Shown here one piece after another: positions 37,748-53,959 of a stretch of DNA of 64,000 nt; positions within the stretch are counted from its first letter, which is position 1; each line of letters begins with the position of its first letter. The notes below the pieces were generated by a model, which was not told the origin of the DNA, searched no databases, and saw nothing but the letters and a program-made list of their open reading frames with translations. The position numbers and the translations under genes were made by a program. Source of the DNA: Fragilaria crotonensis (Eukaryota; Bacillariophyta; Fragilariophyceae; Fragilariales; Fragilariaceae); the NCBI GenBank assembly GCA_022925895.1, contig JAKSYS010000177.1, positions 31,207-95,206 on the forward strand, written 5' to 3'.

Positions 37748-39061
37748 ATGTTGGATCTGGAGTTCGTACTACCGCTGCTTTCAAATGGCACGACAACGAT
37801 TACCCCAGCCATTTTGATGGCGACATCTTCTGTCCTCATCGACGCAACATTTCGACGTGAGTTATATCGCGATCGTATCTGGACTCAAGTCATACTTTGG
37901 TTGGCTGTATCGCTGCAGACGCCATCCGCCGAGCTCCTTGTTCATGGTGTTTTTGCTGCTGCCATCTGCAGTTGTGCGTACACGGTCCTTCTGTTGAAGT
38001 GGTCGATTTTGTTGGATGCGCCTGACTATACCAGACTTCTGGGTCTTTCTCTGTTGATCACACTTTACTGGGATGCTTGTCTTCCAACAGAAAGCCCCCG
38101 GGGCAACCACTGGATGGCATTCCTGTTGATCTTTGCGAGTCTCGCCTCCTGGCTATGGTATTCGAATCAACGCCGCCGACAACGCCAGCACCTCGTTGGT
38201 ATGCCGCTTGTGACTAGCACTGTCAATCTATCAACTACGAATTTAGACGAATGCCTCTGGAATCAGTGGACGCGATCACAAGTCTTGCAGTGGATAGCCA
38301 CTTTAGACGACAATTGGCGGTCTACCGTGTGCTGTCATTTGGCTCCCGAAGCGGTCACGGGATCTGTCTTGAAGGGGATGACAGCAGAAGATCTCAGATC
38401 GATGGGAGTTTCCTATGGAGACGCTCGTCGTCTTGTGAATCATATAGACGGCTTGATATCCAGGTATCCTGAACGCAACCAGTTTTGCGCTGAACCGCAA
38501 GGCGATATTCTGAAGGACTGGCTTGGAGACGATTCTCCGGACGTATCAATATATCAACATCAACCGCCAAAGTCCTTCATGCACGAAACAGAGGCTTTGG
38601 ACGAGGATGTTATCAAAAAGGCTAACGACATGATGAAAGAGAAGTACGGGTTCGAGCTACCTGAAATTCGCAGAAAGATACCGACAGAACAATTCGAATT
38701 CAGAGACTTAGCCGAACACGCATTGCCTCCCACTACAGAGACAACCACGATCGCAGAGGATGAAGCTCCGACTTCAGCAGCGCCGTTAACAGGTTTGCTC
38801 GCATCACTGCCTGAACATATCCGTGAAATAGCTGAACGCAAGCCTGAGCTACTCCAAGCGTTGTGGACAGCTCATCAGCTGGAACGTGAAGATCGTCCTG
38901 CACCTGACCCTGTTCGAATACGACGTCTGATTCAAGATTCAGTCTCTGCAAGATCCAATGCCGTGGAAACCATCACTCAGAATGAACATCAAGACGATGA
39001 AGAAACAACCGGTCTATTGCGAAAGCGTACAAGGAATCCAAAGTATGCATCCATTCTTTAA
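37748..39061 (+). CDS. Multi-pass membrane protein with a cytosolic SAM domain
   Basis: A single exon of 437 residues. The N-terminal 145 residues hold about four or five hydrophobic helices (for example QVILWLAVSL, LLVHGVFAAAICSCAYTVLL, WMAFLLIFASLASWLWY), ended by the positive patch NQRRRQRQ that should face the cytosol. A SAM domain follows (about 174-240: WTRSQVLQWIATLDDNW ... LKGMTAEDLRSMGVSYGDAR). SAM domains bind each other or other proteins and can form chains. The acidic C-terminal half ends in a helical segment, LLASLPEHIREIAERKPELL, and a basic tail. No enzyme domain is seen, so a scaffold role is inferred. Codons from about 164 onward lie in the duplicated block (copy A). It converges on the truncated RING-DTC fragment. 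Confidence 0.75.
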   Translation: MLDLEFVLPLLSNGTTTITPAILMATSSVLIDATFRRELYRDRIWTQVILWLAVSLQTPSAELLVHGVFAAAICSCAYTVLLLKWSILLDAPDYTRLLGLSLLITLYWDACLPTESPRGNHWMAFLLIFASLASWLWYSNQRRRQRQHLVGMPLVTSTVNLSTTNLDECLWNQWTRSQVLQWIATLDDNWRSTVCCHLAPEAVTGSVLKGMTAEDLRSMGVSYGDARRLVNHIDGLISRYPERNQFCAEPQGDILKDWLGDDSPDVSIYQHQPPKSFMHETEALDEDVIKKANDMMKEKYGFELPEIRRKIPTEQFEFRDLAEHALPPTTETTTIAEDEAPTSAAPLTGLLASLPEHIREIAERKPELLQALWTAHQLEREDRPAPDPVRIRRLIQDSVSARSNAVETITQNEHQDDEETTGLLRKRTRNPKYASIL

Positions 39062-40067
39062 GAAAGTAAGAAAAAGAAAACCTAACATCACTTCACGTGT
39101 TGCTGCTTCACCCGCTGCGGAGTAATCGACTCACATGACTGGATAGTACCCCTCGAAACTCGCAACTGACAAATCGTCAAGCGTCCACTCCCATTGGTTA
39201 CGTACCAGTTGATGGTGCACTAGTAATTGTTCATCCCTACGGACAATAGTCTGCCTTGGGGAACCCCAATTTATCGAGTTCGTAGTTGCATTTCTCAAGG
39301 TACGCAGCATCAGGATAACCATATGTGCCCTCTTTAAGTATTGTCTTGTGGGGAATCGACGCCCACACGACACTGTTTGGCTTCTTTGTGGTCTGTGAGA
39401 ATCCAATTTTAAACGTCAGTCCGTGCAACCATGCATACTTAAATCTCTTCAGTATCTGGCACCCTTCACTTGTGTGTGGCAAATAAGCCGGTCGATAACG
39501 GCCCCCTTCGAATGCCACACCAGGATTGTCATGATAACCCAGCTGTACACCGTTAGGAATTCGGTACACGATTTCAATGGCTTTAGCAGAAAATCCAGGG
39601 CAATCTTTCTGAGTCAATGTGATTGCCATGGTGCCTGATGGAGATTTACCCTGCGGCTCCCAGAAGGTCTTTTCGCAGAGTGGGCATTTTCGATCTCGCT
39701 TCAAACAATCAGCCATACAAGATTTGTGAACAAAGTGGGAGCATTTTTTGATTTGAATGCATAGTTCACAACAGAGCATTTTCGAACAAACTGGGCAGTT
39801 ATCCAGGTACCACATCGGAGCTGATGGAGAGACATTAGCTTGAATCTCTGACATGGCATCTTGACCCGTTTCCATAGGTTCTAGGGCGTCGGCAATCGCA
39901 CATTGGTTTGAAAGCGTTACAGGTGCAGTATATTCAAGGGTCTCGTCTCTCATGAAGGCGTTGGCGTCGCCTGGCGGAACCACCAGTGCAGTCAACTCGG
40001 CCTTGCAGTTATCAATGCAGTTGGGATTTGGGATGCCGGAAACCGAGGGGTCGTCTGTCCAAGTTAG
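38239..40067. repeat. Tandem segmental duplication, copy A
   Basis: This block (3' part of the SAM gene plus the convergent 3' part of a RING-DTC gene) aligns along its length with 40570-42383. Similarity starts at GAATTTAGACGAATGCC and stops after TCCAAGTTAG. Copy A keeps the full SAM gene but only the C-terminal RING-DTC module. Small indels and substitutions separate the copies. Confidence 0.92.
39237..39953 (-). CDS. Truncated RING-DTC (Deltex C-terminal) copy
   Basis: The fragment encodes about 238 residues if it starts at the in-frame ATG at 39953 (MRDETLEYTAPV). It holds one RING-type zinc finger (CPVCSKMLCCELCIQIKKC, then HFVHKSC and CPLC) and one DTC domain (PQGKSPSGTMAITL to SIPHKTILKEGTYGYPDAAY). 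It matches the second half of the larger gene at 41575-43062 and lacks that gene's first module. Homology stops at about 40067, where the duplication ends. It could still give a small Deltex-like protein or be silent. It differs from its parent by an extra Phe/Trp/Glu insertion between RING and DTC and by scattered changes. Confidence 0.75.
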   Translation of the reverse strand: MRDETLEYTAPVTLSNQCAIADALEPMETGQDAMSEIQANVSPSAPMWYLDNCPVCSKMLCCELCIQIKKCSHFVHKSCMADCLKRDRKCPLCEKTFWEPQGKSPSGTMAITLTQKDCPGFSAKAIEIVYRIPNGVQLGYHDNPGVAFEGGRYRPAYLPHTSEGCQILKRFKYAWLHGLTFKIGFSQTTKKPNSVVWASIPHKTILKEGTYGYPDAAYLEKCNYELDKLGFPKADYCP

Positions 40068-40498
40068 ACTACCGGTAGTCTACCAGGTACAGTACCGGTA
40101 GTTCTGATGACAGCATAACACATTTTTCTGATCGATCATCCCCGGTATTCTAGGTGCAAAATCACCTAGAATGACCCTCGCGGGCAATTGTTATCACCTA
40201 GAATACCCGTTCTTCTTATGAAGTTATGCGCAAGAACAAATCTTCTTATGAACTTATTTAGGAGAACATTCCATCTTATCAATACACATTTTCCTAGAAG
40301 TCTAACTTAGAAACGAGAAGGTATCTAATCGTGAACTTATTTACGAGAAGAAATCTTCTCATCAACTCATTCATGAGAAGCTTTCTAATCGTGGACTTAT
40401 TTAGGAGGAGAAATTACCTCCGAGCCTGCCAAGCCCCCATTTGCATACGACGTACATGACGCCAGCCAGTCTCCGACTACGTTATTAATTAAACGGTC
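40068..40498. repeat. Duplication junction with hairpin and degenerate short tandem repeats
   Basis: This is non-homologous sequence between the two duplicated copies. ATTCTAGGTG (40147-40156) and CACCTAGAAT (40163-40172) make a perfect 10-bp stem with a 6-nt loop, and a third arm CACCTAGAATACC lies at 40196-40208. From about 40240 to 40425 units of the type GAACTTATTTAGGAGAA recur three or four times with changes. No gene is seen. Confidence 0.7.
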
Positions 40499-41287
40499 AT
40501 GTCCCAGGAAGAAGCAGCAGCACAGCAGCACGTAAAAAAGAGGTTTTTTTTAGTCGAATGCGAATTTAAGAATTTAGACGAATGCCACTGGAATCAGTGG
40601 ACGAGATCGCAAGTCTTGCAGTGGATAGCCACCTTGGACGACAATTGGCGGTCTAGCGTGTGTTGGCATTTGGCTCCCGAAGCGGTCACGCGATCTGTCT
40701 TGAAGGGGATGACAGCAGATGATCTCAAATCGATGGGAGTTTCCTATGGAGACGCTCGTCGTCTTGTGAATCACAGAAAAGGCTTGATATCCAGGTATCC
40801 TGAACGCAACCAGTTTTGCGCTGAACCGCAAGGCGATATTCTGAAGGACTGGCTTGGAGACGATTCTCCGGACGTATCAATGTATCAACATCAACCGCCA
40901 AAGTCCTTCGTGCACGAAACAGAGGCTTTGGACGAGGATGTTATCAAAAAGGCTAACGACTTGATTGATGAAAGAAAGTACGGGTTCGAGCTACCTGAAA
41001 TTCGCAGAACGATACCAATGGAAAAATTCGAATTCGATACGACTAGCGCCCAAGAAACCGGAGAACTAGCCGAACACGCATTTCCTCCCACTACAGAGAC
41101 AACCACGATCGCAGAGGATGAAGCTCCGACTTCAGCAGCGCCGTTAACAGGTTTGCTCGCATCACTGCCTGAACATATCCGTGAAATAGCTGAACGCAAG
41201 CCTGAGCTACTCCAAGCGTTGTGGACAGCTCATCAGCTGGAACGTGAAGATCGTCTGTACCTTACTCTATTCGAATACGGCGTTTGA
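40499..41287 (+). CDS. Truncated SAM-domain copy, frameshifted at the 3' end
   Basis: This is an open frame of 262 residues. The first 25 residues (MSQEEAAAQQHVKKRFFLVE) are new sequence from the junction. From NLDECHWNQWTR on it matches the SAM gene at 37748-39061. It has no membrane helices. It keeps a stretch (TTSAQETGE) that copy A lacks, so copy A probably lost it. After HQLEREDR a small indel near 41255 shifts the frame and ends the protein early, while the rest of the old coding sequence is still readable to about 41420. A soluble SAM-only product is possible; a dying copy is as likely. Confidence 0.65.
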   Translation: MSQEEAAAQQHVKKRFFLVECEFKNLDECHWNQWTRSQVLQWIATLDDNWRSSVCWHLAPEAVTRSVLKGMTADDLKSMGVSYGDARRLVNHRKGLISRYPERNQFCAEPQGDILKDWLGDDSPDVSMYQHQPPKSFVHETEALDEDVIKKANDLIDERKYGFELPEIRRTIPMEKFEFDTTSAQETGELAEHAFPPTTETTTIAEDEAPTSAAPLTGLLASLPEHIREIAERKPELLQALWTAHQLEREDRLYLTLFEYGV

Positions 41288-42383
41288 TTCAAGATTCAGT
41301 CTCTGCAAGGTCCAATGCCATGGTATCCATCACTCAGAATGAACATCAAGACGATGAAGAAACAACCGGTCTATTGCGAAAGCGCACAAGAAATCCAAAG
41401 TATGGATCCATTCGTTAAGTAAGTAAGAAAAAGAAAGCCTAACATCACTTTACGTGTTGCTGCTTCACCCGCTGCGGAGTAATGGACTCACATGACTGGA
41501 TAGTACCCCTCGAAACTGCCAAAGCGTCCAGTCCCATTGGTTGAGGAGCACTTGATGGGGCACTATTGATATCCCTACGGACAATCGTCTGCCTTGGGGA
41601 ACCCCAATTCATCGAGTTTTCCGTTGCATTCCTCAAGGTACGCATTGTCAGGAAAACCGAATGGGCCCTTTAGAAGTGATGTCTTGTGGGGAATCGTCGC
41701 CCAGACGACACTGTCTGGCTTCTTTGTGGTCAGTGAGGTTCCAATTGTAAACGTCAGTCCGTGTAACCATGCATACTTAAATCTCTTCAGTATCTGGCAC
41801 CCTTCACTTGTGTGTGGCAAATAAGCCGTTCGTACAGTCTGATCGTATGGCACACCAGGATTCTCATGATAGCCCAGCTGTATACCATGAGGAATTCGGT
41901 ACACGATTTCAATGGCTTTAGCAGAAAATCCAGGGCAATCTTTCTGAGTCAATGTGATTGCCATGGTACCTGATGGAGATTTACCCTGCGGCTCGTCGCA
42001 GTGTGGGCATTTTCGATCTCGCTTCAAACAATCAGCCATACAAGATTCGTGAACAAAGTGGAAGCATTCTTTGATTTGAACGCATGGTTCACAACAGAGC
42101 ATTTTCGAACAAACTGGGCAGTCATCCAGGTACCACATCGGAGCTGAAGGAGAGACATTAGCTTGAATCTCTGACATGGCAACTTGACCCGTTTCCATAG
42201 GTTCTAGGGCGTCGGCAATCGCACATTGGCTTGAAAGCGTTACAGGTGCAGTATATTCAAGGGTCTCGTCTCTCATGAAGGCGTTGGCATCGCCAGGCGG
42301 AACCCCCAGTGCAGTCAACTCGGCATTGCAGTTATCAATGTAGTTCGGATCCGGGAAACCGTGGGGTCGTCCGTCCAGGTTAG
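40570..42383. repeat. Tandem segmental duplication, copy B
   Basis: Partner of 38239-40067, in direct orientation and offset by about 2.33 kb. Copy B keeps the full RING-DTC gene but only the C-terminal half of the SAM gene. The reciprocal truncation shows that the ancestral order was full SAM gene then full RING-DTC gene, and that the duplicated unit began inside one and ended inside the other. Confidence 0.92.
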
Positions 42384-43062
42384 TTTTGTGATGAATCGAG
42401 GTCCACACGACACTATTACGCCATCCCGTTGTGAGTGAAGTGCCGATCGAAAACGTCATTCCATGCATCCAAGCGTACTTTAGCCGATCGAGAAGCTGAA
42501 CACCTTCGTCGTTGTTCGGAAGGAATGCAGTTCGCCTTGTCGCGCTGTATGTCGCACCCGGATTTTCGTGAAAGGAAGATTGTATCCCTCTTGGGATTGC
42601 GTAGTCTATCTGGATTGCCTTTGTTGAAGGCTTGAACCCAGGGCAGTCACTGTGAGTGAGATGAATTCTCATTGATCCCGAGGGGCAATGACCTTGAGGT
42701 GAAACGGCAAACTCTCGACAGATGGGACACTTGGGATCATGCGTCAAACAAGCTTTTATGCAATCATCATGAAAGCAGTGCCGGCATTTCTTGATTTGGA
42801 CGCATGCACGATTGAGTGGAAAAAGGCAAATGGCGCAGTCGTCAAAACTTGCAGGCCCTTTGTCGGCAATGGTTGCAGCAACAGCAAGAGGAAAGGGCTG
42901 CTTCTCAAACGAGCGTGAAATGCCGAGACTCTCAGAAATCATCTCTGGCGCATCGTACACAAGCTCCTCGTTGCACACAATTGGCTTGGAAGAAATTCGT
43001 TTTCGCATTCTGTTGATGAATGTTGATAATATGTCAACTACCCACTTCCAGTCCACACACAT
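41575..43062 (-). CDS. E3 ubiquitin ligase with two RING-DTC (Deltex-type) modules
   Basis: The start is taken at the ATG at 43062 (MCVDWKWVVDIL); 495 residues. The frame is open a little further up, so an upstream exon is possible. Module 1 has a RING (CAICLFPLNRACVQIKKCRH ... CPIC) and a DTC domain (SPQGHCPSGSMRIHL ... VVWTSIHHKTNLDGRPHGFP). Module 2 repeats both (CPVCSKMLCCEPCVQ ... CPHC; EPQGKSPSGTMAITL ... VVWATIPHKT). Deltex proteins pair RING with DTC; the DTC domain binds ADP-ribose or NAD+ and allows ubiquitin to be attached to ADP-ribosylated targets. Animal Deltex proteins have one such module, so two in tandem is unusual. The second module's RING-to-DTC linker is shorter than the first. 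The gene is divergent from the Cache-WWE-PARP gene. Confidence 0.87.
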   Translation of the reverse strand: MCVDWKWVVDILSTFINRMRKRISSKPIVCNEELVYDAPEMISESLGISRSFEKQPFPLAVAATIADKGPASFDDCAICLFPLNRACVQIKKCRHCFHDDCIKACLTHDPKCPICREFAVSPQGHCPSGSMRIHLTHSDCPGFKPSTKAIQIDYAIPRGIQSSFHENPGATYSATRRTAFLPNNDEGVQLLDRLKYAWMHGMTFSIGTSLTTGWRNSVVWTSIHHKTNLDGRPHGFPDPNYIDNCNAELTALGVPPGDANAFMRDETLEYTAPVTLSSQCAIADALEPMETGQVAMSEIQANVSPSAPMWYLDDCPVCSKMLCCEPCVQIKECFHFVHESCMADCLKRDRKCPHCDEPQGKSPSGTMAITLTQKDCPGFSAKAIEIVYRIPHGIQLGYHENPGVPYDQTVRTAYLPHTSEGCQILKRFKYAWLHGLTFTIGTSLTTKKPDSVVWATIPHKTSLLKGPFGFPDNAYLEECNGKLDELGFPKADDCP

Positions 43063-43906
43063 CCAGGTTCGCTCTAAGTTAACGGATTGACGACTCGTGC
43101 TGCTCCCGGCTGATTCTTGACGAAGCACGAATCGGAATGAGGAAAGCAGTTCGATTAGAATTCAAGTGAAAACGGTAGTGATGGAGGTATGAACGTTGGC
43201 GTTCCTTTAGTGCAATCGATCCGATTACAAGTATAACGGTGCTGTGTTACGATGTTACGATACGTGGATTCGTCGACGCGTTTGCGGGTGTACAGCGGTT
43301 TGCTTACAATTTTTTGACTGAATTCCAGTTCGACATGCTGAGACATGCATGAATTGCGTACAAGTACTAGTACCTCGTACGAATGATACCAAGCGGCATT
43401 ACTGAAGTACGGGTAGGTGCTGTCAGTCAAAATACTGAAAGATAAGTATTGGACGTATTACTTGTATCATACGTACATACCCATACGTTTGCATGTGGAT
43501 GTCATACGTGCATGCTGGATGCTGAGAGTTCTATGTATGTGGGCTATATCGTACATCGTACCAGAACTTTTGACCTCGGGTGCGTACCAATAATCCAGTC
43601 CCCTTGTATGAAGTTCGCAGTCCACGGTACATAGATTGCAGTGAAACCAAACGACGTCATGCTGGTCATGCTTGGTCGCGAGTCGTGGATCCAACGACTC
43701 GGCTGAAGTACAACGTACAAGTACTATACTGTACCACGAATATTCTATCTGTCCTCCACATTGTATGACATATGAGCCTGGTACGTACTCTTAGTAATCA
43801 AGTATTCTGCAGTACACATACACCATTCCACCATCACTTTCTCGACGTGCTCATTGATTTACGCTCCAGAAATATTCTGTTGCCACCAACTTCTGTTTCT
43901 CAAACG
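43063..43906. promoter_or_regulatory. Shared divergent upstream region of the RING-DTC and Cache-PARP genes
   Basis: About 845 bp separates the two start codons and must hold both promoters. It has CATACGTAC/GTAC-rich stretches (43370-43600). No gene is supported inside, and I cannot name specific factor sites. Confidence 0.5.
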
Positions 43907-46900
43907 ATGAGTGGGGCACCATGGCGTTCCGCAACAGCACTGCTATTACTCTGGACTGCTCTACCTCAGAGCGCCTTTTCTGAACTTCTCCAGTCAGCCC
44001 GTGTCAGCTGCAATGCTGCCTACAATGCCCCATGCGCACGAATCACCTCGTGGGAGCTGGCCACAGAAACGGCGACCAAACTGCTTGGGTTGAAAAACGA
44101 GTCCGATGACTTCTTACGAGGAGTGACAGGAGGCGATTTCAACAGTAGCACTGGTTTCTACCCTTTTGTCATTGACCGTAACACGACCGTCTGCGTTGCC
44201 CACGGAGCCGACGCGTCGTTGGTTGGTGAAACACTGTGGAAGATCTTCTCACAATTCGGCATCGAATTTTCGGACGTGAGTGCGTTCCATACTCGATGTA
44301 TCGAAGCCGCTAGGAAAGGAGGTGGGTGGGTTCGGTACGTATGGAGCGATGGTGGCTCTCCGAAAAGCAAGCTTGCCTATGTAACGAACGTTACCGACCA
44401 GTACTACATTGGAGTGGGATATATAGACAGCCAGCTTCCGCCCGACTTGCCCTGCTCTGCCGAGTACGATTCCTTGTGCAGTATTTTGAATGTACAATCG
44501 CTGTTAGGCAAAGCGCAGAATCATCTCTTCCAAGAGTCTGTCGAAGATTTTGATGCAGCTGTCTACGACTTAAGCTTCTCAGAAGCGTTTCGAATTCCTG
44601 GTGGGTACTATGTATTTATGAACAACTACAACGGCCAACTTAAGGCACACGGAAACAACCAATCTAATTTCGGTCGGCGGTTTGCAGATGTCTACTTCGA
44701 GAAAGGATTGGGCAACCTGCGGAAAGGACAAGAAATCCATGAGGCGTTTGTCACAGCCGCAGAAGGTAGTGGATGGGTGGAGTACGAATGGCGAGACAGC
44801 ACTGTGGATGAATCTTACGTTAAAATTGCTCTCCTCGTCAAGGTCGAGTTTGACTCACAGAGTTATTATCTAGGTGTAGGGTTCAAGTTTAGCAGGGATC
44901 CGGTGTCGAGTTTTGATGTTGAGTGTTCGAGTGAGTATAACTCACCTTGCTCCTTCGCAACTGCGCTTGCATTGTCAAGCCATGCTCTGGCGTACGCAAT
45001 TTCTTCTCCTTCTAACACCACAGACGCCACTTTTGAGAATATCTCGCTCAGTGATGAATTTCGGACTGATGATTTTTACGTGTTCGCCTACAATTTCGAT
45101 GGATACTGTGTCGCCCATGGGCAGGACTATTCATACGTTAATATGACCTTGGCAGAAGTCTTTGAAGAAAAAGGTTTCGATTTAGATGCAGCGAAGCTGC
45201 ATGCGCAGTTTCAACTTGCTGCCATCCAGGGTGGTGGATGGGTGCTCTACGATTGGGCGAAACCTGGTGAGGCGAACTTCAAGAAACTGTCCTATATCTT
45301 TCTGATCACATTGGAAGGCCAATCTTACTATGGAGGTGTTGGTTTCAACAACAAACGAGCACCGGTTGACGTCTTCTCCGACACAGGACGAAAGAAGAAT
45401 GGTGACAGGATCCCATGCTCCATGAACTATAGCCAGCCATGCAGTCATGTGAACGTGAATGCCATCTTAGGCTCAGCACTTGCAGATCTTACTCTAGCAT
45501 CGTCGGAAGTCGGCGTTGCAACCCAATTGGAACGACTTCTCGAGAGCATCTCGACTGGAGATGAAGACCTTTATAGCGTCAATGATTTTCGTGTGTCAGT
45601 GTTCTCGGCTGATGCCAATCAATGCATCGACGATTTGTCTGGTTGTTGCATCGCGTATGGCGGCAAGATTGAGTACGTGAATTCAACGTGGCAAGAAATT
45701 CTCAACAAACAAGAAGTCACGTCGATTCAAGGAGCAGAACTTCACCGTGACCTCGTAGACTTGGCCAACGGCGGCGGAGGGTGGTACGAATACCCTTGGT
45801 CGAAATCGGCGGGTGTTGCGCAAGTGAAGCGTGCACTGGCAGCGAGATTTCGGAGTGGCGAAAAAAACTACTATGTTATTGCGGAGTATCTCAATTCCGA
45901 GCTCCCTTCAACGTGCGACGATTGCGAAGGAGGCCAGGAGTGTACACGGGATGATCAAGAGTTTTGCGAGCAGAAACCCGACCTAATTGTGCAGCATTTG
46001 GTCGCGGTGTGTGTAAGTGTGTTCGCCCTCGGATCCCTTATAGCTCTTTTCTGTTGGAATCGAGAGAGACGATCTAGAATAAAGAGCAGACAGATATTGC
46101 AAGAAAAGAAGAGGAGCTGCTGCGAATGGCAGAGCAGATGCAACAGAAAATGCAAGGAATGGTGGAAATCGTTCTTGACTTGCCAATTCAATCTCCACAC
46201 GCCTACGACCTGAAGGTCCAACAAAGTAAAGGTGGCGATTCAATCCTTCCACATATTTCTGCAGTTTGGTATTGGGAAGAAGACCCCTCCCATGTGTCAT
46301 GCCATCTTCCATCGACGGTCCTCCATAACACAACATTTGTCCGCTATTCAAGGGACATCTCTGAAGTTCTGGAGCAGTCGTACGGTGCATTTCTGGAGGG
46401 TCGGGGAAGTCGTGAGATTCATGTTGACTTATCAAATAAGATATCGTCGACAGCCGCTGGAGGAAAGGCGAGCAATTCGTCAACTGGAGCCCAGTACGTG
46501 GTAAATTTTGAGACTTTCGTGCAACTCAATATCAAAACAGCACACAGGCGAAAAGTTCACCGCGAGGAAGTTTCTATACCCATTGAAGCTGAGGTGCTTG
46601 GGAGTCTGCCCCAGCTTCCGGGCGACATTGATTTTGGCGATGACGGCGAGGCTTTGCTCCCCACTTTCAAAGGACAAATCATCCAGGTTTCTGAGCATGA
46701 CACCAGTGGGCTCTGGATGTATGGCAACGTTCTACATGACCCTCTCCTCAACGCTGCCCGCCAGCAATCCCAGGCGGCAAATGCAACTGCGTCAGCACTA
46801 AACACCTTGATGGTCAACGCGCTGCATGATAGACCGACCTCAGGGTGGTTTCCAAAATCAGTCTCAAAACCCGCAGATGCGAAAGTTATGCAAAAACTAT

Positions 46901-47607
46901 TGAAGAAATTTGGAGGAGAAGGTGCAGACATCCTGGCACCTCCCGATACCTGGGTTACCATCGCCAACAGTACGTCCTATCACGAAGGGAGGGTGGGCGT
47001 TGATTCCAATAGCACAGAATACAATGAAGTGGTCACATTTTTCATGACATCGATGCGCGATCGTGGAAGGTTCATAAACGTGACGAACCTTGAGAGGATC
47101 CAGAACTTGCCTTTGTGGCAGTCCTATGCCGTCAGAAAGCAAATAATCCAAACTCGAGACATTGATACCCCACACCATCGCATCAACAACCTCGACTTGA
47201 CCGATATTGAGCGAAGATGGCTCTTTCACGGCACCTGCAGCGCCGTTGTACCAAAAATTGTGACTCAAGGCTTCAATCGAGCTTTCGCTGGGCGCCATGC
47301 AGTATATTACGGCAAGGGAGTCTACTTTGCTCGAGACGCCTCCTATTCTAGCAACGAGACCTATTCTGCCCCTGACAGTAAAGGAATCCAACGAATGTTT
47401 CTGTGTCGCGCAATTGTCGGCGACTGGTGTCGAGGAGTCGAAGGCCAATTAACTCCGGATGCGAAGCCACACAACACATTGGAATTGTTCGATTCTACGG
47501 TGGACAACGTGTCAAAACCTTCCATCTTTGTCATATACCACGACGCTCAAAGCTTCCCAGAGTATTTGATCTCCTTTCGCGCGTCCGATACGAGGCGGGC
47601 CATTTAA
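43907..47607 (+). CDS. Signal peptide, four Cache-like domains, WWE and PARP catalytic domain
   Basis: I read join(43907..46012, 46078..47607), 1211 residues; the 65-nt intron (GTAAGT...TCTAG) is phase 0. MSGAPWRSATALLLLWTALP is a signal peptide. Four Cache-like repeats of about 150-165 residues follow, each opening with a Cys pair (CSAEYDSLCS, CSSEYNSPCS, CSMNYSQPCS) and carrying FVIDRNTTVCVAHG or GGGWVRYVW type motifs; such domains bind small ligands outside the cell. After the splice come a coiled coil (ARKEEELLRMAEQMQQKMQ), a WWE domain (about 765-860) that should bind poly-ADP-ribose, and a PARP domain with LFHGT (His), GKGVYFARDASYS (Tyr) and an Ile where PARP1 has Glu (IFVIYHDAQ), so mono-ADP-ribosyl transfer is predicted. 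If the intron is kept, the frame gives a good membrane helix (VSVFALGSLIALFCW) and then stops; see findings. It may also be two adjacent genes. Confidence 0.8.
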
Positions 47608-47755: not shown

Positions 47756-50700
47756 CTATGCCACACCACCGGGAAGCAGGAAGCATAGCCGACTCAAGCC
47801 GTCTCGAGTCGAATCCTCGCCAGGTTTGGCTCTCGCAAGAACTCTCAAAGCGTCAGAGATAGCAGGGTGCATTGTAGAATCAATGTCACATGAGGACACG
47901 AGAATTTCCGCCTGCTCTTGAAGATGGCGACCCGCGCCGATACCCCCGAGGTACACGATCACTGTGCATGCCACCAACAAGCCATGGATATCAGGAAAGA
48001 GAGAGTTCTGTCTGGTCAAATCGTTCATAATGCAGCGCGATGCACTTCCAGAGTATTGCTCACGCAATACTTGCAATAGTAACAATCCGCTGCGCGTCAG
48101 ATTTGCGCACGCTTCAGCCTGTGGCTGCAACGGCGGTTTCCTGGCAACCAAAGTAGAAGCTGCAAGATGGCACTCAAGAAGCAATTCTTCGTAAGAATTG
48201 GGTTCCTCATCCTCAAAAATCTTCCTCGCCGTATCGATGTTCTGTAACGCCGACGCGCCCTTGGCACCTTCAATGGTGGTTAACTCGAGCATCACAAGCG
48301 CAAGTTTCTCGGGAAATCCTTTGTACTTTCCGGCCAACGAGCTCAACAGGAACGCGCTGATGCGTTCATCCCCATTGCAGCCACTCATACCCGCGTAAGC
48401 CCTCTCCAATGCCAAGAGGGCCACAACCGAAGTCGGCTTGTCTCGTCCTGCCAGAGAGCGAGCAGCCACGAAGCGGACGTCTGCGTCGCTGTCTTGGAGT
48501 AGCTTGAGAACCTCTCGTTGCAACGAGGAGTTACTTGAGACAGGCAGCTCGCGCGTTAACAGCGAACTGTTGTCGATTGCACAAGCTACGCTGTGGCGAA
48601 CTCTCCAAGGTCCCAGAGGATCGTTGAGTTCCTTTGCAACTAACCAGAATCGACGTGCTTTCTTGTCCAAATCATCACTATTTCCAGTGATCGCCAATGA
48701 CCACCCCATGAGCTCGAGCGCATTCGCGATCGACTTGTCATCACAGTCGATGTTCTGAACTTCGAAATCAGGAATCATAAGACTTGCAAGCTGCCATAAA
48801 TCCGAAATAGTCCGCAATCCACTGCAGTCAAGAGTCTGAATTGTATGGAGACACTCCAAAAGGCACCTTGACAGTCTTCGCACCGTTGGCGGGTGCGATC
48901 CGGGAGAATTGTTGATCGATTTCCTTCGGAGTTCTTTGTCTAGTGATTCGCAAAAACGTTGAGCCACACTCTCAACAATAGCCGCCTTTGCAGAAAGTGG
49001 CGAATCCGCTAGCAGCAGGTCGTCGATACGGTGATAGATTGTCTTCTTGAATGCCTTCGTCGCCGCCAAACGGGTGTCAATAACGTCACAAGTAAGGAGG
49101 GTTTTCATTTGTTCAACGTAGTATGCATGACTTTGTCCTCGCGCCCAAAGGAGCGCAGACAATAAGTCTGACGCCACCCTACCGGCAACATGGTACAGCG
49201 TCGATTCTCCGGCTACTTGAAGTTTATCGTTGTGCTTGTGATCCTGCAGTATGCCGAGACAAAATCGAATTAGTTCGTCGAGCCCTTGCTGGCTGCTTGT
49301 CATCTGCAGGCAGTAACTCCGAATCTCGATCGCCTTGGCCAAACAGGATGGATGGACAGGATATTGCTGACTGAACAAATCACAAATAACTTGGCTTGCG
49401 CCGCTCAGCTCCAAAGCAGACAACGGAGATGACAGGGTTTGCAATATCTCATAAATTGCAATAAGTGAACCGTGCTTGGCATTCCATGATTCGTCAGGAT
49501 TCCTGACTTTCTCTGCGCACACTCGGAGTAACAGGTCAGGGTGCGATGCCCTCGAACGATCCTTGCTTGCCATGTTCGCCAATGCACGGCCAGCGATGAC
49601 TCTGATCTTGTGCTCCTTTTGACAAAGGCTCTCAACAACCGGGCCAATGAAACAGTCAGTTATAGACGATGCTTCATTGCCAGATCGGCGTACTGGCTGG
49701 AGCCGTGCAAGCAGGAGAAGCACCAAGTACACGGGCGAGTGCAGCGAGCTGAAGGAAGATTCTACATCTGGATCATCATAAAGGCCATGCTTGAGAGCAG
49801 CTAGCAAGTACCCCTTCAACTGAGGATACGTTCGAAAGAACTCCACAGCAGAGATTGCGTTGCTACTCGTTTCATCCTTCTGGACGGCGTTTTTATCCGA
49901 GTCTATGACTCGCAGCATGGCCGCGGAAAAAACCATGGTCGCTGAATTTCGCACGGCCCATATTGTGTCAGTGTAGCCAATAAGTGATGCAATGATACAA
50001 TCGCCCACGAATGGCGCAACCTCAACCGCCAGTGGTGAATCAAGAATGATGAGTCGGAGGACGTTCAGCGAGTGTACCCTCGATGTGGGGTCGCTTGTAG
50101 AGCAGAACGAAAGGGCCCCTGAAAGATGTGACCGCAAACAATCCGAAAATTGTAATGTGGCGTTTCTCGCGACACCTGCGAGACCAAGAGAAGCAGCATG
50201 TTCCTCGACACTTGATTTGGGTGGCAATGCCAACATGACGAGCCTTGCGAGAATGTTTGGGCACAACGTTCTTGGGAAGACTTTGAGAGATAGCTCAGAT
50301 CTCATCAAGGCCAAGAATCCCAGTGCATACCCAGTGCTGCGCCTGAGAGTTGAATCGCGAACTTTCTCCGCTGACGAGATCTCAATGGCTAGTCGTTCGG
50401 ACCATCTCTTAGGAAAGCGTCGAAGTTCCGTTGCCGAGACCTTTGACATGCAATAGGTTGCAATTTGTTGGAGCGCCCTTTGTGCAGCATAAGCCGCGCC
50501 TTGATGCTTCAGTGCTGTCATCGTCGTTATCAATATTTGGCCTGCTCTCCCAACACCCGACGAGGACACGTACGTCGGTTCATAAGTGATCAGGGATGTA
50601 AGAGTGGCACATGCCTCACGCGTCAACAACCACGATCCAATCACAACCCTTTGAGTCGCAAATCGTCGCAAGGTCTCACTTTCAGCGGAGAAATTGATTG

Positions 50701-53700
50701 ATGAGAAAGTCGCATTCGCGCCGATCGCACCAGTGTTCACGTTCAAGGGGACAGCGGATGCACGCCCTTCAGAATGGTCAATGAAGTTCTCCATGCCTTC
50801 GAGGTATTCCCCATCCTTCACGTCTGCAACCACTGAAAGAGATACCTGAATCGCTTGCAAGCAAATCTCGACGAGTTTTGCAATGTCATCTCGAGAATAC
50901 GCTCCCCAAGTATCCATTGTGCTGGCTTCGATAATAAACCGAACTGATTTAATCAATCCGTGCGCCATTGGCAAAGTCAGACCTTTCTCTATAATCGGCA
51001 ACTCATGGCAGTCACCAGCTGTTAGAATTTCGTTGAGACTCTGCCTCATTCCATCGACTCGTTCCTTGAGCATGGCTGTTAGCCATATCAGGAAGTCCTG
51101 TCGAGCGACTGAGCTTGCTTTGGAACATGAGTGAAAAGCCAAGATCATGGCGCCCGTGTCTGCTTCGCGCTGCCGTGGAGATGCAGAAAGATAGACCCCT
51201 CGCCCCAACTCAAGCTCATCGCGAAATTGCGGTGGCAAAGGAATTCCACTTCTGTGAGCTGCACGAGTCAATGATATAAGGCAGGAAAAGGCCTCGCTCC
51301 GTGTAGCATCCCATATGGAGTGACAAAGGGAAACGATCATACACAATACTTCTAAGGATAGAAGGTTCTCCATGATGCCTCTTAGTGTCGCAAGGACACA
51401 CGCCTGACTTCGGTGGTAAGCCCTTTGTGCCTGCTTTTAACAAGCGCCTCCATCAGTCATGAGGAAATCGCTCCTCATCGCAACAGTCATAACACAGCGT
51501 AGTAAAGATATGGCAAACTGTTCCTTGTCTGACACCGTTCCAGGATAGGCAGCCTGCTTCAACAGAATCGTGCCCACAAGAAAGTCGTTGACGAAAGCGG
51601 AATATCGCGGCAAAGGTTCACTGTCAGAAATGGATTCTTGGGTTTCTGCTATCATGAGCCGATCCAAGAAGCACGTTAATGTTTGAAGGATGGTGGCGAT
51701 GTACTCCTTGCCAGTGGACTTGACTGCGTATGGTAAGGCTGCTTGCCACATGTCCAACTCGAAATGAAGCGCACCAGCGTGGCGTCCGATTGAATCGCGC
51801 GCCGACAGCAAAGGCTCCAACGCAGCGAACGCAGCTAACCTCACACGTTCGGAGCTATGCGTTAGGGAAGAGCGCACAAGGTCCAAAGGAAACTTCTCCC
51901 TCAGGCTCGTTCGCAATTCCTCGGAGGTTGACAACGAGCCGACCAGCTTCAGCGCAGAAGCTTGTCTTGCAATTTCCAGTTTGGCCCATAAGAATATGTC
52001 ATCGAATGTCTCGGCATCATATGATAATACAGGAAGGACAATTCCTTTAACCTTGTGACTTTCATATTCGTTCTCAAGGAACTTCAGCAGCACCGACATG
52101 GCGTATGACGCATCCATTCGACGGGACGACCCTCCGACCATTGTAATGAGAAGGGGAATGCAAAATGATGATACTTGTTTTCGCCGCACATGCGATTTGG
52201 AAAGAAGCCCTCGTGCAAAGTCAGGAGCCCATAACTCGATCCACTCTGGTAGAATTTGCGGCGTCGTGATTTCTAACTGGACCTCGTCTCCATTCGCCAA
52301 TCGTTGTTCGAGCTTTCGCCTTTCCTTCCGGTTAATCGACGCTCCCTCGTCAATGACGAAACCACTTTCCTGGTTCATTTCTTCCCTTCGTTTCGATAAG
52401 ATCTTACCTAGAAGGCAGGCAATATTACCTGCTGTATGGCCTCTGTCTCCCACCCCTTTCACTAATGATGTTACTAAGCGACCACCGCCGCTGACCATCA
52501 AGGTCTTCGCTCCGATTATGGGGAGTAGCGTTTCCAGGGCTATGTAGCGTCCTTTCTGATTAACAGGTTGCGAAAGTACACGGCCTACCAATCCTTGAAT
52601 TCCAGACGCGGCTTTTTCTTGTTTCGGGTGCAATGTTTCGATCACATCAACAAGACTGTTAAAGAGTCCTGGGATTGCACCGGCGACTTGTCGTCCGGGT
52701 GGGTTCTCCCATGCTGTCATGACAACATGCAGAGTCTCCTGCGTCAAATTGTCCATGTTGGCCAAGAACATATCAGACACGGCGTTGTCCCTCCTAACAA
52801 TTGAGCAGCATCGACTCAGCAAAGTTTGAAGACTTCGCAGCGCCGCCAACCGAGTTTGGCCATCTATAGCGTGACTGCACTGGCACAAAAGGTACTTTGC
52901 AAGGTGATCTTCAAGAAGTGACAAGGGTGAACCATAAACAAGCACATCATCACTGAGAACCACGGATATCCCGTGCACTGAACACAAAGTGTTGAGTGGT
53001 GGAAGGACGCTATCGGCAACAACATGCTGTATCCTTTCCAAAGCACGCTCACTGATGCGTGCGACTGGCATATGAATCCACGACACTAAAAGCGTCTGTC
53101 CGTATGCGACACCCAACTTGCTGAGCCCATCGGCGTGGAAAGCCGAGCTAGTGATTCCCTTCCACAGGAAAAGTTGTAACTCCTTCAGCACTGCATTCAT
53201 GTCACTTGTAAAGCTGAAGCCTTCTCGTTGGAGAAGATTCGTCAAGAGCACCTTCAGTGTTGTGGCTATCTCGGTGGTCAACTCCACTTCTGCCTCAGCC
53301 ACTTCTGGTAGCGGGAAATCTTTAGCATCATCAGCAACATAGAAAGAGGATTGATCAAGGACAGGAAGCACAGAAAGGCTTGTGTTATGCAGAAGATCAA
53401 GTGCACTCTGAATGCTATGTTCGCTTGCAACAATAATGTGGTTCGTTGGTGGATAGTTTAGTGCTTCAAACAAAGTCTGCAAAGGATACTCCCAAAACTT
53501 GGGCTGCCATATCGTCGTCACAACATGTCTATGCATTCCAGATAATGTTTCTGTGTCTAGGATTTCACAGAGTGCATCCATATTGGCCCGAATCGCCCTT
53601 CGCAACGGTTGGTTTGTCATGTGAGATAGGGACAATTCTAGCAACACTCTGTATGTTCCCACAAAAACGGCCGCGTGGCTCCGAATGACCTGCGCACTGT

Positions 53701-53959
53701 CAGGCTTCGGCAACGCGTTTCGAAACGTTTGCAGCGCTTGCAACTGATCTCGATTCTGTGTCGAAGTAGTCAGTGCTCTCCACAGTTGTTCCACATGCGA
53801 CGACTCGCTTGAATTCAAGGAGAGAACTGCCAAGGCTTCAGTCACGCCGGCACTACTGTTGTCGTTGATTTCATCATCTGAGCTGTGGTTTAGCGAAAAG
53901 CGGATGAAGCCATCGTGAGGGACTGGGATGGCTTCAGCTACTTTGGCTTTCTTCCCCAT
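47756..53959 (-). CDS. THADA: THADA/Trm732-family HEAT-repeat protein
   Basis: I read complement(join(47756..51378, 51442..53959)), 2046 residues, close to human THADA (1953). Trm732/THADA partners the Trm7/FTSJ1 methyltransferase for 2'-O-methylation of the tRNA anticodon loop. Helical HEAT-like repeats fill the protein. The DUF2428 signature is clear at about 1275-1320: SRVHSLNVLRLIILDSPLAV, then WAVRNSATMVFSA. The start MGKKAKVAEA is the first ATG of the frame. Both parts are in the same frame, separated by a single TAA at 51437-51439. A 63-nt intron with a weak donor (GTTAAA) and a CTAAGAG acceptor removes it without changing frame. The alternative is a real nonsense mutation. The gene converges on the PARP gene, 148 bp away. 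Confidence 0.85.

Follow-up and report, generated by a model that had tools for sequence, protein, structure and literature searches.

The 64,000-nucleotide stretch of Fragilaria crotonensis DNA analysed here, referred to as the window (contig JAKSYS010000177.1, positions 31,207 to 95,206, assembly GCA_022925895.1), carries at 43907-47607 of its forward strand a gene that appears to encode a receptor-like ADP-ribosyltransferase. The gene comprises, in this order, a signal-peptide-like start, four Cache repeats, one transmembrane (TM) helix, a frame change, a WWE domain and a PARP domain. It lies on contig C89 (in the numbering used here) of an assembly of 62.1 Mb in 881 contigs, and all genome-wide domain counts come from an exon-by-exon profile search and are lower bounds. 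The features of the gene, all on the forward strand, are as follows.

43769-46213 (open frame): ORF A (open reading frame A), first in-frame ATG at 43772, ATG with the signal-peptide-like start at 43907
43907-43981: signal-peptide-like N-terminus MSGAPWRSATALLLLWTALPQSAFS, read from the sequence by eye, with a modest hydropathy peak of 1.17
44009-44452: Cache repeat 1, from the repeat alignment, with a C-x7-C start and the best Pfam sCache_2 stretch (ORF residues 85-171)
44453-44923: Cache repeat 2, from the repeat alignment, with a C-x7-C start and a dCache_2 stretch at C89:75809-76090
44924-45415: Cache repeat 3, best dCache_2 stretch, model pLDDT (predicted local distance difference test) 85.9, best Foldseek match the sCache domain of TlpB
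45416-45940: Cache repeat 4, which has diverged furthest and has a Cys-containing loop inserted, with 75% identity (183 aligned codons) to a paralogue on contig C41
45998-46054: single TM helix LVAVCVSVFALGSLIALFC, followed by basic WNRERRSRIKSR; Kyte-Doolittle window mean 2.66, against 1.28 for the runner-up in ORF A
46078-47607 (open frame): ORF B, in a different frame from ORF A, own ATG at 46126, stop at 47605-47607
46078-46213: overlap of ORFs A and B (136 nt), containing a frame-changing one-base length difference from the C41 paralogue
46090-46180: charged, coiled-coil-like juxtamembrane segment, by eye, aligning to charged repeats of the C41 paralogue
46261-46563: WWE domain, Pfam 1.6e-6, 28.8 bits (cut-off 21.1), C89:77467-77769
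47011-47580: PARP catalytic domain with an H-Y-I triad, Pfam 3e-23, 82.8 bits (cut-off 26.7), C89:78217-78786

The assignment of the N-terminal array to the Cache superfamily follows from Pfam, where ORF A exceeds the cut-off for both dCache_2 (E=5e-19, 69 bits against 26.5, five stretches) and sCache_2 (E=8e-17, 62 bits against 25, four stretches). The repeats are each about 150-175 residues long, with C-x7-C starts at 44009, 44453, 44924 and 45416, and their alignment brings out the common motifs G-x-G-W, Y-x-W and Y-Y. Repeat 3, the one of the four that was modelled, was folded with an alignment of the four window repeats and 34 bacterial sequences (34 of the 49 extracted stretches) and is predicted to adopt the long N-terminal helix (H8-27) and PAS-like sheet of a Cache fold, with mixed strands and helices after the helix. 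Its best solved match in Foldseek is the single Cache domain of the chemoreceptor TlpB (E 7e-5, probability 1.0), at a TM-score of only about 0.48 and a root-mean-square deviation of 5.3, with PAS and other sensor domains ranking next; when the array was compared with the PDB by primary structure, its sole match was likewise TlpB (E=0.17). Cache domains are bacterial sensors that are less abundant in eukaryotes, where they were apparently acquired by horizontal transfer (as stated in a passage of PMC4822843). A protein-based scan for a bacterial source of the array returned seven pattern matches, none of which was confirmed. A motif scan of bacteria gave 48 loci including clear sCache relatives; since the motif was the criterion of selection, the E-values of these loci do not count as independent evidence. 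Among bacteria, the repeats are best matched by ORFs of about 600 residues on two contigs titled Acidobacteria (L066 and L102), which by eye apparently have tandem Cache domains of their own.

In ORF B, both WWE (PF02825) and PARP (PF00644) score above their curated cut-offs. The PARP domain is closest in the PDB to human PARP15 (2.6e-41), the nearest set being PARP15, PARP14, PARP10 and PARP12, and its triad consists of H (in LFHGT), Y (in GVYFA) and I (in PSIFV). The third position, which we take to be the equivalent of PARP1 Glu988, is thus hydrophobic, and the triad residues are those of the H-Y-[hydrophobic] class, pointing to a mono-ADP-ribosyltransferase. Between WWE and PARP, 46582-46959 is a conserved region without a family match; an SH3-like domain suspected there by eye was dropped, as Pfam gave no match and the PDB matches (E 0.26 and 1.4) were at the level of chance. 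The WWE-PARP half folded without an alignment yielded an uninformative model (pLDDT 29). In two IMG/VR searches for a viral origin of the PARP, tblastn confirmed none of the 68 and 61 pattern matches; the copy-specific peptides used would miss distant viral PARPs. The WGR domain of classical PARP1 had no match in the exon-by-exon search, in which the control was detected in 2 of 14.

The preliminary description of this DNA had proposed a two-frame gene with Cache-like repeats, WWE and PARP, a layout that ORF reading together with Pfam and PDB matches confirms. The four Cys-paired repeats were borne out by Pfam, the C-x7-C starts and the common motifs, and the WWE domain and H-Y-I PARP by Pfam, PDB matches and the triad residues; the signal peptide and the coiled coil after the frame change were recognised again by eye only, as the start at 43907 and the segment at 46090-46180. 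A structural comparison of the repeats with Cache folds, suggested in the same description, led to TlpB for the one repeat modelled. The TM helix was absent from its feature list and was added by a hydropathy scan.

Whether the two frames encode one protein is addressed by the paralogue at the start of contig C41 (bases 2-2173), in which Cache 4, the TM helix, a charged coil, WWE and PARP follow each other in one open frame of 723 codons. Identity between the window gene and this copy is 76% in coil-WWE-PARP (480 codons) and 75% in Cache 4 (183 codons); the TM helix lies at the same place (mean 2.77), and basic residues follow it in both. C41 is taken as a dispersed copy, not an allele, because the similarity stops about 23 bases beyond the stop codon. 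In the DNA alignment, a one-base length difference inside the overlap accounts for the frame change. How such a difference could arise is illustrated by two contigs carrying the same locus (C658:266500-273500 compared with C49:1500-9000; L032, L035), which over 5,556 aligned columns show no mismatches, 23 gap openings and 39 gap bases. These indel-only differences are the mark of uncorrected indels, and the assembly also holds duplicated contigs. The frame change in the window is therefore read as an assembly error, most likely an indel and not biology. Frame breaks elsewhere in the genome deserve the same distrust, given the indels and duplicated contigs.

On these comparisons, a Cache array outside and a WWE-PARP half inside are supported as parts of one protein. 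All parts of a single-pass receptor are present, the signal peptide and topology being read from the sequence and the continuity from Cache 4 to PARP being found in C41, not in the window. The preliminary description had also favoured one protein, and the single frame of C41 from Cache 4 to PARP adds an argument against two genes; the frame change itself is now most likely an assembly error. If there were two genes, namely one for a membrane-anchored Cache protein that terminates after the TM helix at 46213 and one for a soluble WWE-PARP with its start near 46126, the overlapping frames and the ATG at 46126 that belongs to ORF B would be accounted for. Nevertheless, C41 holds both halves in one open frame through TM helix and coil, the 136-nt overlap leaves no room for a poly(A) site and a promoter, and indel-only differences do occur between two contigs of the assembly. 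Separate halves were not found in any paralogue: the genome search turned up one further Cache-PARP copy (C41), and it is a single frame. Two genes are the least probable of the alternatives considered, with a very small chance of being right.

A real break is a second alternative, in which the window copy would be a truncated decoy (Cache array, TM helix and short tail) or a pseudogene of recent origin, and C41 the working gene. The break is present in the sequence as given, and the synonymous divergence (dS) between the copies (45419-47604 against L014 2-2170), at 0.44 in Cache 4, 0.34 in WWE and linker and 0.09 in PARP, could reflect uneven exchange or drift between them. This explanation is rather improbable, as the roughly 1,200 remaining codons of the window gene are open without an additional stop or frame break, and as the two contigs compared above differ by 23 gap openings and no mismatch over 5.5 kb. 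The fall in dS towards the PARP part looks as if that part had recently been converted. A third alternative is an intron at 46013-46089 (GTAAGT...CAG, 77 nt), whose length restores the frame and whose splice signals are both present; it would remove most of the TM helix and leave a soluble or alternatively anchored protein. Against it, C41 has GC for GT at the aligned place and codes for the TM helix straight through, and the product would presumably be a lumenal or secreted PARP without NAD+, which makes such an intron highly improbable. The single-protein reading with an assembly indel is retained in what follows.

Apart from the Cache type, six further loci (L030-L034) combine an ANF_receptor domain, the ligand-binding domain resembling that of class C G-protein-coupled receptors (GPCRs), with a TM helix, a coil, PARP and WWE, three of them as single ORFs and three as ORF pairs.

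C843: single ORF of 859 residues, ANF_receptor 8e-35, PARP 1e-13, WWE 5e-9
C328: single ORF of 863 residues, ANF_receptor 2e-40, PARP 8e-14, WWE 3e-12
C658: single ORF of 846 residues, ANF_receptor 2e-18, PARP 1e-11, WWE 2e-11
C94 (two loci) and C299: ANF_receptor ORF with TM helix, then an ORF with the second part of PARP and WWE, PARP 23.5-24.7 bits, just below the cut-off of 26.7

In the three paired loci PARP is split between its histidine (first ORF) and its tyrosine (second ORF), which fits one intron at the putative joint. The triad is H, Y, I in the window, C41, C843, C328 and C658, with V at the third position in both C94 loci and C299. In each of the six loci, a single hydrophobic helix beyond the sensor dominates the hydropathy profile: its 19-residue mean is 2.37-3.34, and no other segment exceeds 1.79. 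The best PDB matches of the C328 ectodomain are metabotropic glutamate and calcium-sensing receptors, and its PARP matches PARP14. Signal-peptide-like starts occur in the window gene and in three of the six loci (C94 twice, C299).

The genome has six PARP matches (five over the cut-off), each in a receptor-like ORF or, on C94, in an ORF beside one, and nine WWE matches, one of them in C49. The C94, C328, C658 and C843 loci were reached through their PARP matches and the C299 locus through its WWE match; C49, a gap-broken near copy of C658, was excluded from the gene count. The receptor-like PARP set thus amounts to eight loci, two of the Cache type and six of the ANF type. The two types have unrelated ectodomains and opposite orders of the inner domains, PARP-WWE in the ANF type and WWE-PARP in the Cache type. 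Judged from these sequences, PARP seems to have been joined to unrelated sensors at least twice, and two independent joinings seem the simplest history. A third ANF_receptor ORF on C94 (C94:3640-4653, L063), with TM helix and coil, was left out of the count and is possibly a decoy or a truncated copy.

Taken together, the window gene is read as encoding a single-pass type I receptor, one of a set of receptor-like PARPs in this genome, with the sensor outside the cell or in a lumen, a TM helix and a cytosolic PARP; its output would be mono-ADP-ribosylation, read by WWE domains or possibly by a Deltex protein. The probability of this reading is put at about 0.68. The architecture, that is, the domains, their order and the hydrophobic segment, is well supported, whereas the type I orientation, the choice of membrane, dimer formation, enzyme activity, control by a ligand and the connection to Deltex are inferred. 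The window protein has 18 cysteines in the 665 residues of its putative outer half and 4 in the 493 of its inner half, and its ectodomain contains more N-x-S/T (N-glycosylation) sequons than shuffled sequences do (10 against 4.6, p 0.015).

The same architecture could also reside in an internal membrane (endoplasmic reticulum, vacuole or plastid envelope) and sense the lumen, or the Cache array could merely anchor or localise a constitutive PARP. No sequence feature fixes which membrane is used, the N-terminus (PQSAF-SEL) distantly resembles the ASAFAP motif of diatom plastid proteins, and PARP16 and a few other PARPs are membrane proteins (passages of PMC4245714). Mere anchoring is disfavoured by the joining of two unrelated sensor types to PARP, which favours sensing, and a plastid location by the putative cleavage site, which by eye leads straight into Cache 1 with no obvious transit peptide. 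These alternatives are unlikely, although with a real chance of being right; plastid targeting through the ASAFAP-like motif was considered and judged weak.

Further support for an ADP-ribose-based pathway may come from the neighbourhood of the window gene, where two Deltex-type ORFs lie on the reverse strand.

41575-43128, reverse strand: E3 ligase with two RING-DTC (Deltex) units, Pfam DTC 4e-77, DTC domains at 42301-42696 and 41602-41988
39237-40079, reverse strand: second RING-DTC ORF, a partial tandem copy, DTC at 39264-39653 (Pfam 9e-35), RING 21.3 bits (cut-off 27.3)

The Deltex order, RING followed by DTC, is found in the first ORF, which matches DTX1 (6e-35), DTX2 (1e-33) and DTX3L (1.5e-23) in the PDB; in the second, DTC is over and RING under the Pfam cut-off. 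The three DTC matches of the whole 62.1-Mb genome all fall at 39264-42696 of the window, 1.2-4.6 kb upstream of the ATG of the window gene and on the opposite strand, and the longer Deltex ORF starts about 0.8 kb from that ATG. The chance of one Deltex locus lying near a PARP was estimated by us at about 0.003 (eight PARP loci, 10 kb on each side). ADP-ribose and NAD+ are both bound by the DTC domain of Deltex proteins, which together with RING ubiquitinates ADP-ribose (a passage of PMC12687431), and the DTX2 residues H582, H594 and E608 are known for ADP-ribose ubiquitination (a passage of PMC11460948). Mapped by spacing and by alignment with DTX1 and DTX2, their equivalents are H, H and E in the first DTC domain, P, F and K in the second and P, Y and E in the third, so that one of the three keeps all of them; the third has Tyr at the H594 place, as in DTX3L. 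The locus contains a tandem duplication (38236-40067 and 40567-42383, 90.1% identity) of a forward-strand SAM-domain ORF with a reverse-strand RING-DTC ORF. The N-terminus of the longer SAM ORF (37748-39061) looks membrane-embedded by eye.

A sequence of events can be proposed on this basis. The window protein would carry its signal peptide and four Cache repeats outside the cell or in a lumen, and its coil, WWE and H-Y-I PARP in the cytosol, on the far side of the TM helix. A small ligand bound to the Cache array might alter the geometry of a dimer through the TM helix and coil, bringing the cytosolic PARP domains together or to their substrates, on which single ADP-ribose units would be attached. 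The tag could be read by WWE domains or by the neighbouring Deltex E3, which may add ubiquitin to ADP-ribose and so route the target or the receptor itself. The fuller proposal, that diatoms have receptor ADP-ribosyltransferases whose Cache or Venus-flytrap (VFT) sensors directly control a cytosolic PARP and whose linked Deltex E3 makes an ADP-ribose-ubiquitin signal, is a tentative one to which somewhat less than even odds are given. Six macrodomain matches elsewhere in the genome are possible erasers.

Several points weigh against the receptor reading and its extensions. The receptor-like PARPs are known here from sequence alone; the window copy is not open across the junction, and the C41 copy is cut by the contig end, showing of the array only Cache 4. 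The ratio of non-synonymous to synonymous divergence (dN/dS) between these two copies, 0.35 in Cache 4 and 0.58 in coil-WWE-PARP, denotes only moderate constraint on the inner half and comes from a single sequence pair. Among the ANF loci, the link from sensor to second PARP half depends in three of six (C94 twice, C299) on an inferred intron, the ORFs of C843, C328 and C658 as read show no signal peptide, and no PARP-WWE match was found around the additional ANF_receptor ORF at C94:3640-4653 (7-kb locus). Sequons exceed shuffles inside as well (8 against 3.1, p 0.006), and an excess in both halves gives the topology no support. Finally, the Deltex linkage is a single instance that was noticed after the fact.

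Downstream of the window gene lies a THADA/Trm732-like gene on the reverse strand (47756-53959), made up of two ORFs (47756-51373 and 51437-53959) split by an intron or another frame break. Sixty-one matches to light-harvesting proteins, some of which are exons belonging to a single gene, mark the genome as photosynthetic; the best (L113) matches FCPI-7 of 6ly5 (4e-87), a diatom entry, so that the sequence itself makes a diatom very likely.

If the receptor reading is correct, ADP-ribosylation would join kinase, cyclase and phosphatase activity among the few direct outputs of receptors, and with the Deltex link a ligand-to-ubiquitin pathway would run without a kinase or cyclase. Few receptors are known by which diatoms sense bacteria, grazers, mates or nutrients, and NAD+ analogues, PARP inhibitors and ADP-ribose reagents would then offer a chemical handle on such sensing. 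Diatoms were once listed as lacking PARPs (a passage of PMC2964712), an absence revised when at least two were reported for Thalassiosira oceanica (a passage of PMC4245714). No description of a receptor PARP was found among the open-access papers listed on PARP, Cache, receptor, WWE, Deltex and diatoms, as judged by titles and the starts of abstracts, a scope that leaves absence from print unproved; within it, the preliminary claim that no PARP with an extracellular Cache array has been described holds.

PARPs are known mainly as intracellular enzymes of DNA repair and of stress or antiviral response. The nearest relatives of the window PARP by sequence, the human PARP14/PARP15/PARP10/PARP12 class, share with it the H-Y-hydrophobic triad, and some of them have WWE beside PARP; those known are soluble, and they are not known to have a signal peptide, a TM helix or a ligand-binding ectodomain. 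Like the window gene, PARP16 combines PARP with a TM segment, in its case a C-terminal helix; TM segments also occur, with other domains or none, in one PARP of a sponge, in rhizarian proteins of Clade 3 and in one rice protein of Clade 2 (passages of PMC4245714). The word Cache is absent from the main text of PMC4245714, and its passages on TM PARPs name no ligand-binding ectodomain. As for gene neighbourhood, PARP9 and DTX3L have a common bidirectional promoter and form a heterodimer in which PARP9 is without an assigned catalytic activity of its own (passages of PMC12687431). Unlike the window gene, that pair has no receptor part. The window resembles it in having a Deltex E3 divergent from a PARP gene, and the diatom arrangement may be convergent with the human one. 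The human PARP9-DTX3L cluster includes PARP14/15.

Ligand sensing is the role for which Cache and ANF_receptor domains are best known. With the bacterial Cache chemoreceptors and sensor kinases (sCache_2/dCache_2, TlpB) the window gene shares ectodomain fold and sequence family, and it differs from them in its four tandem repeats, eukaryotic host and PARP output. Venus kinase receptors, receptor guanylate cyclases and class C GPCRs have an ANF_receptor/VFT ectodomain, the enzyme-linked ones with a single TM helix and a catalytic inner domain; the ANF loci share this ectodomain, and their output is PARP instead of a kinase, a cyclase or a seven-helix TM bundle. Each domain described here is a family member by its own test, and it is their combination that is new.

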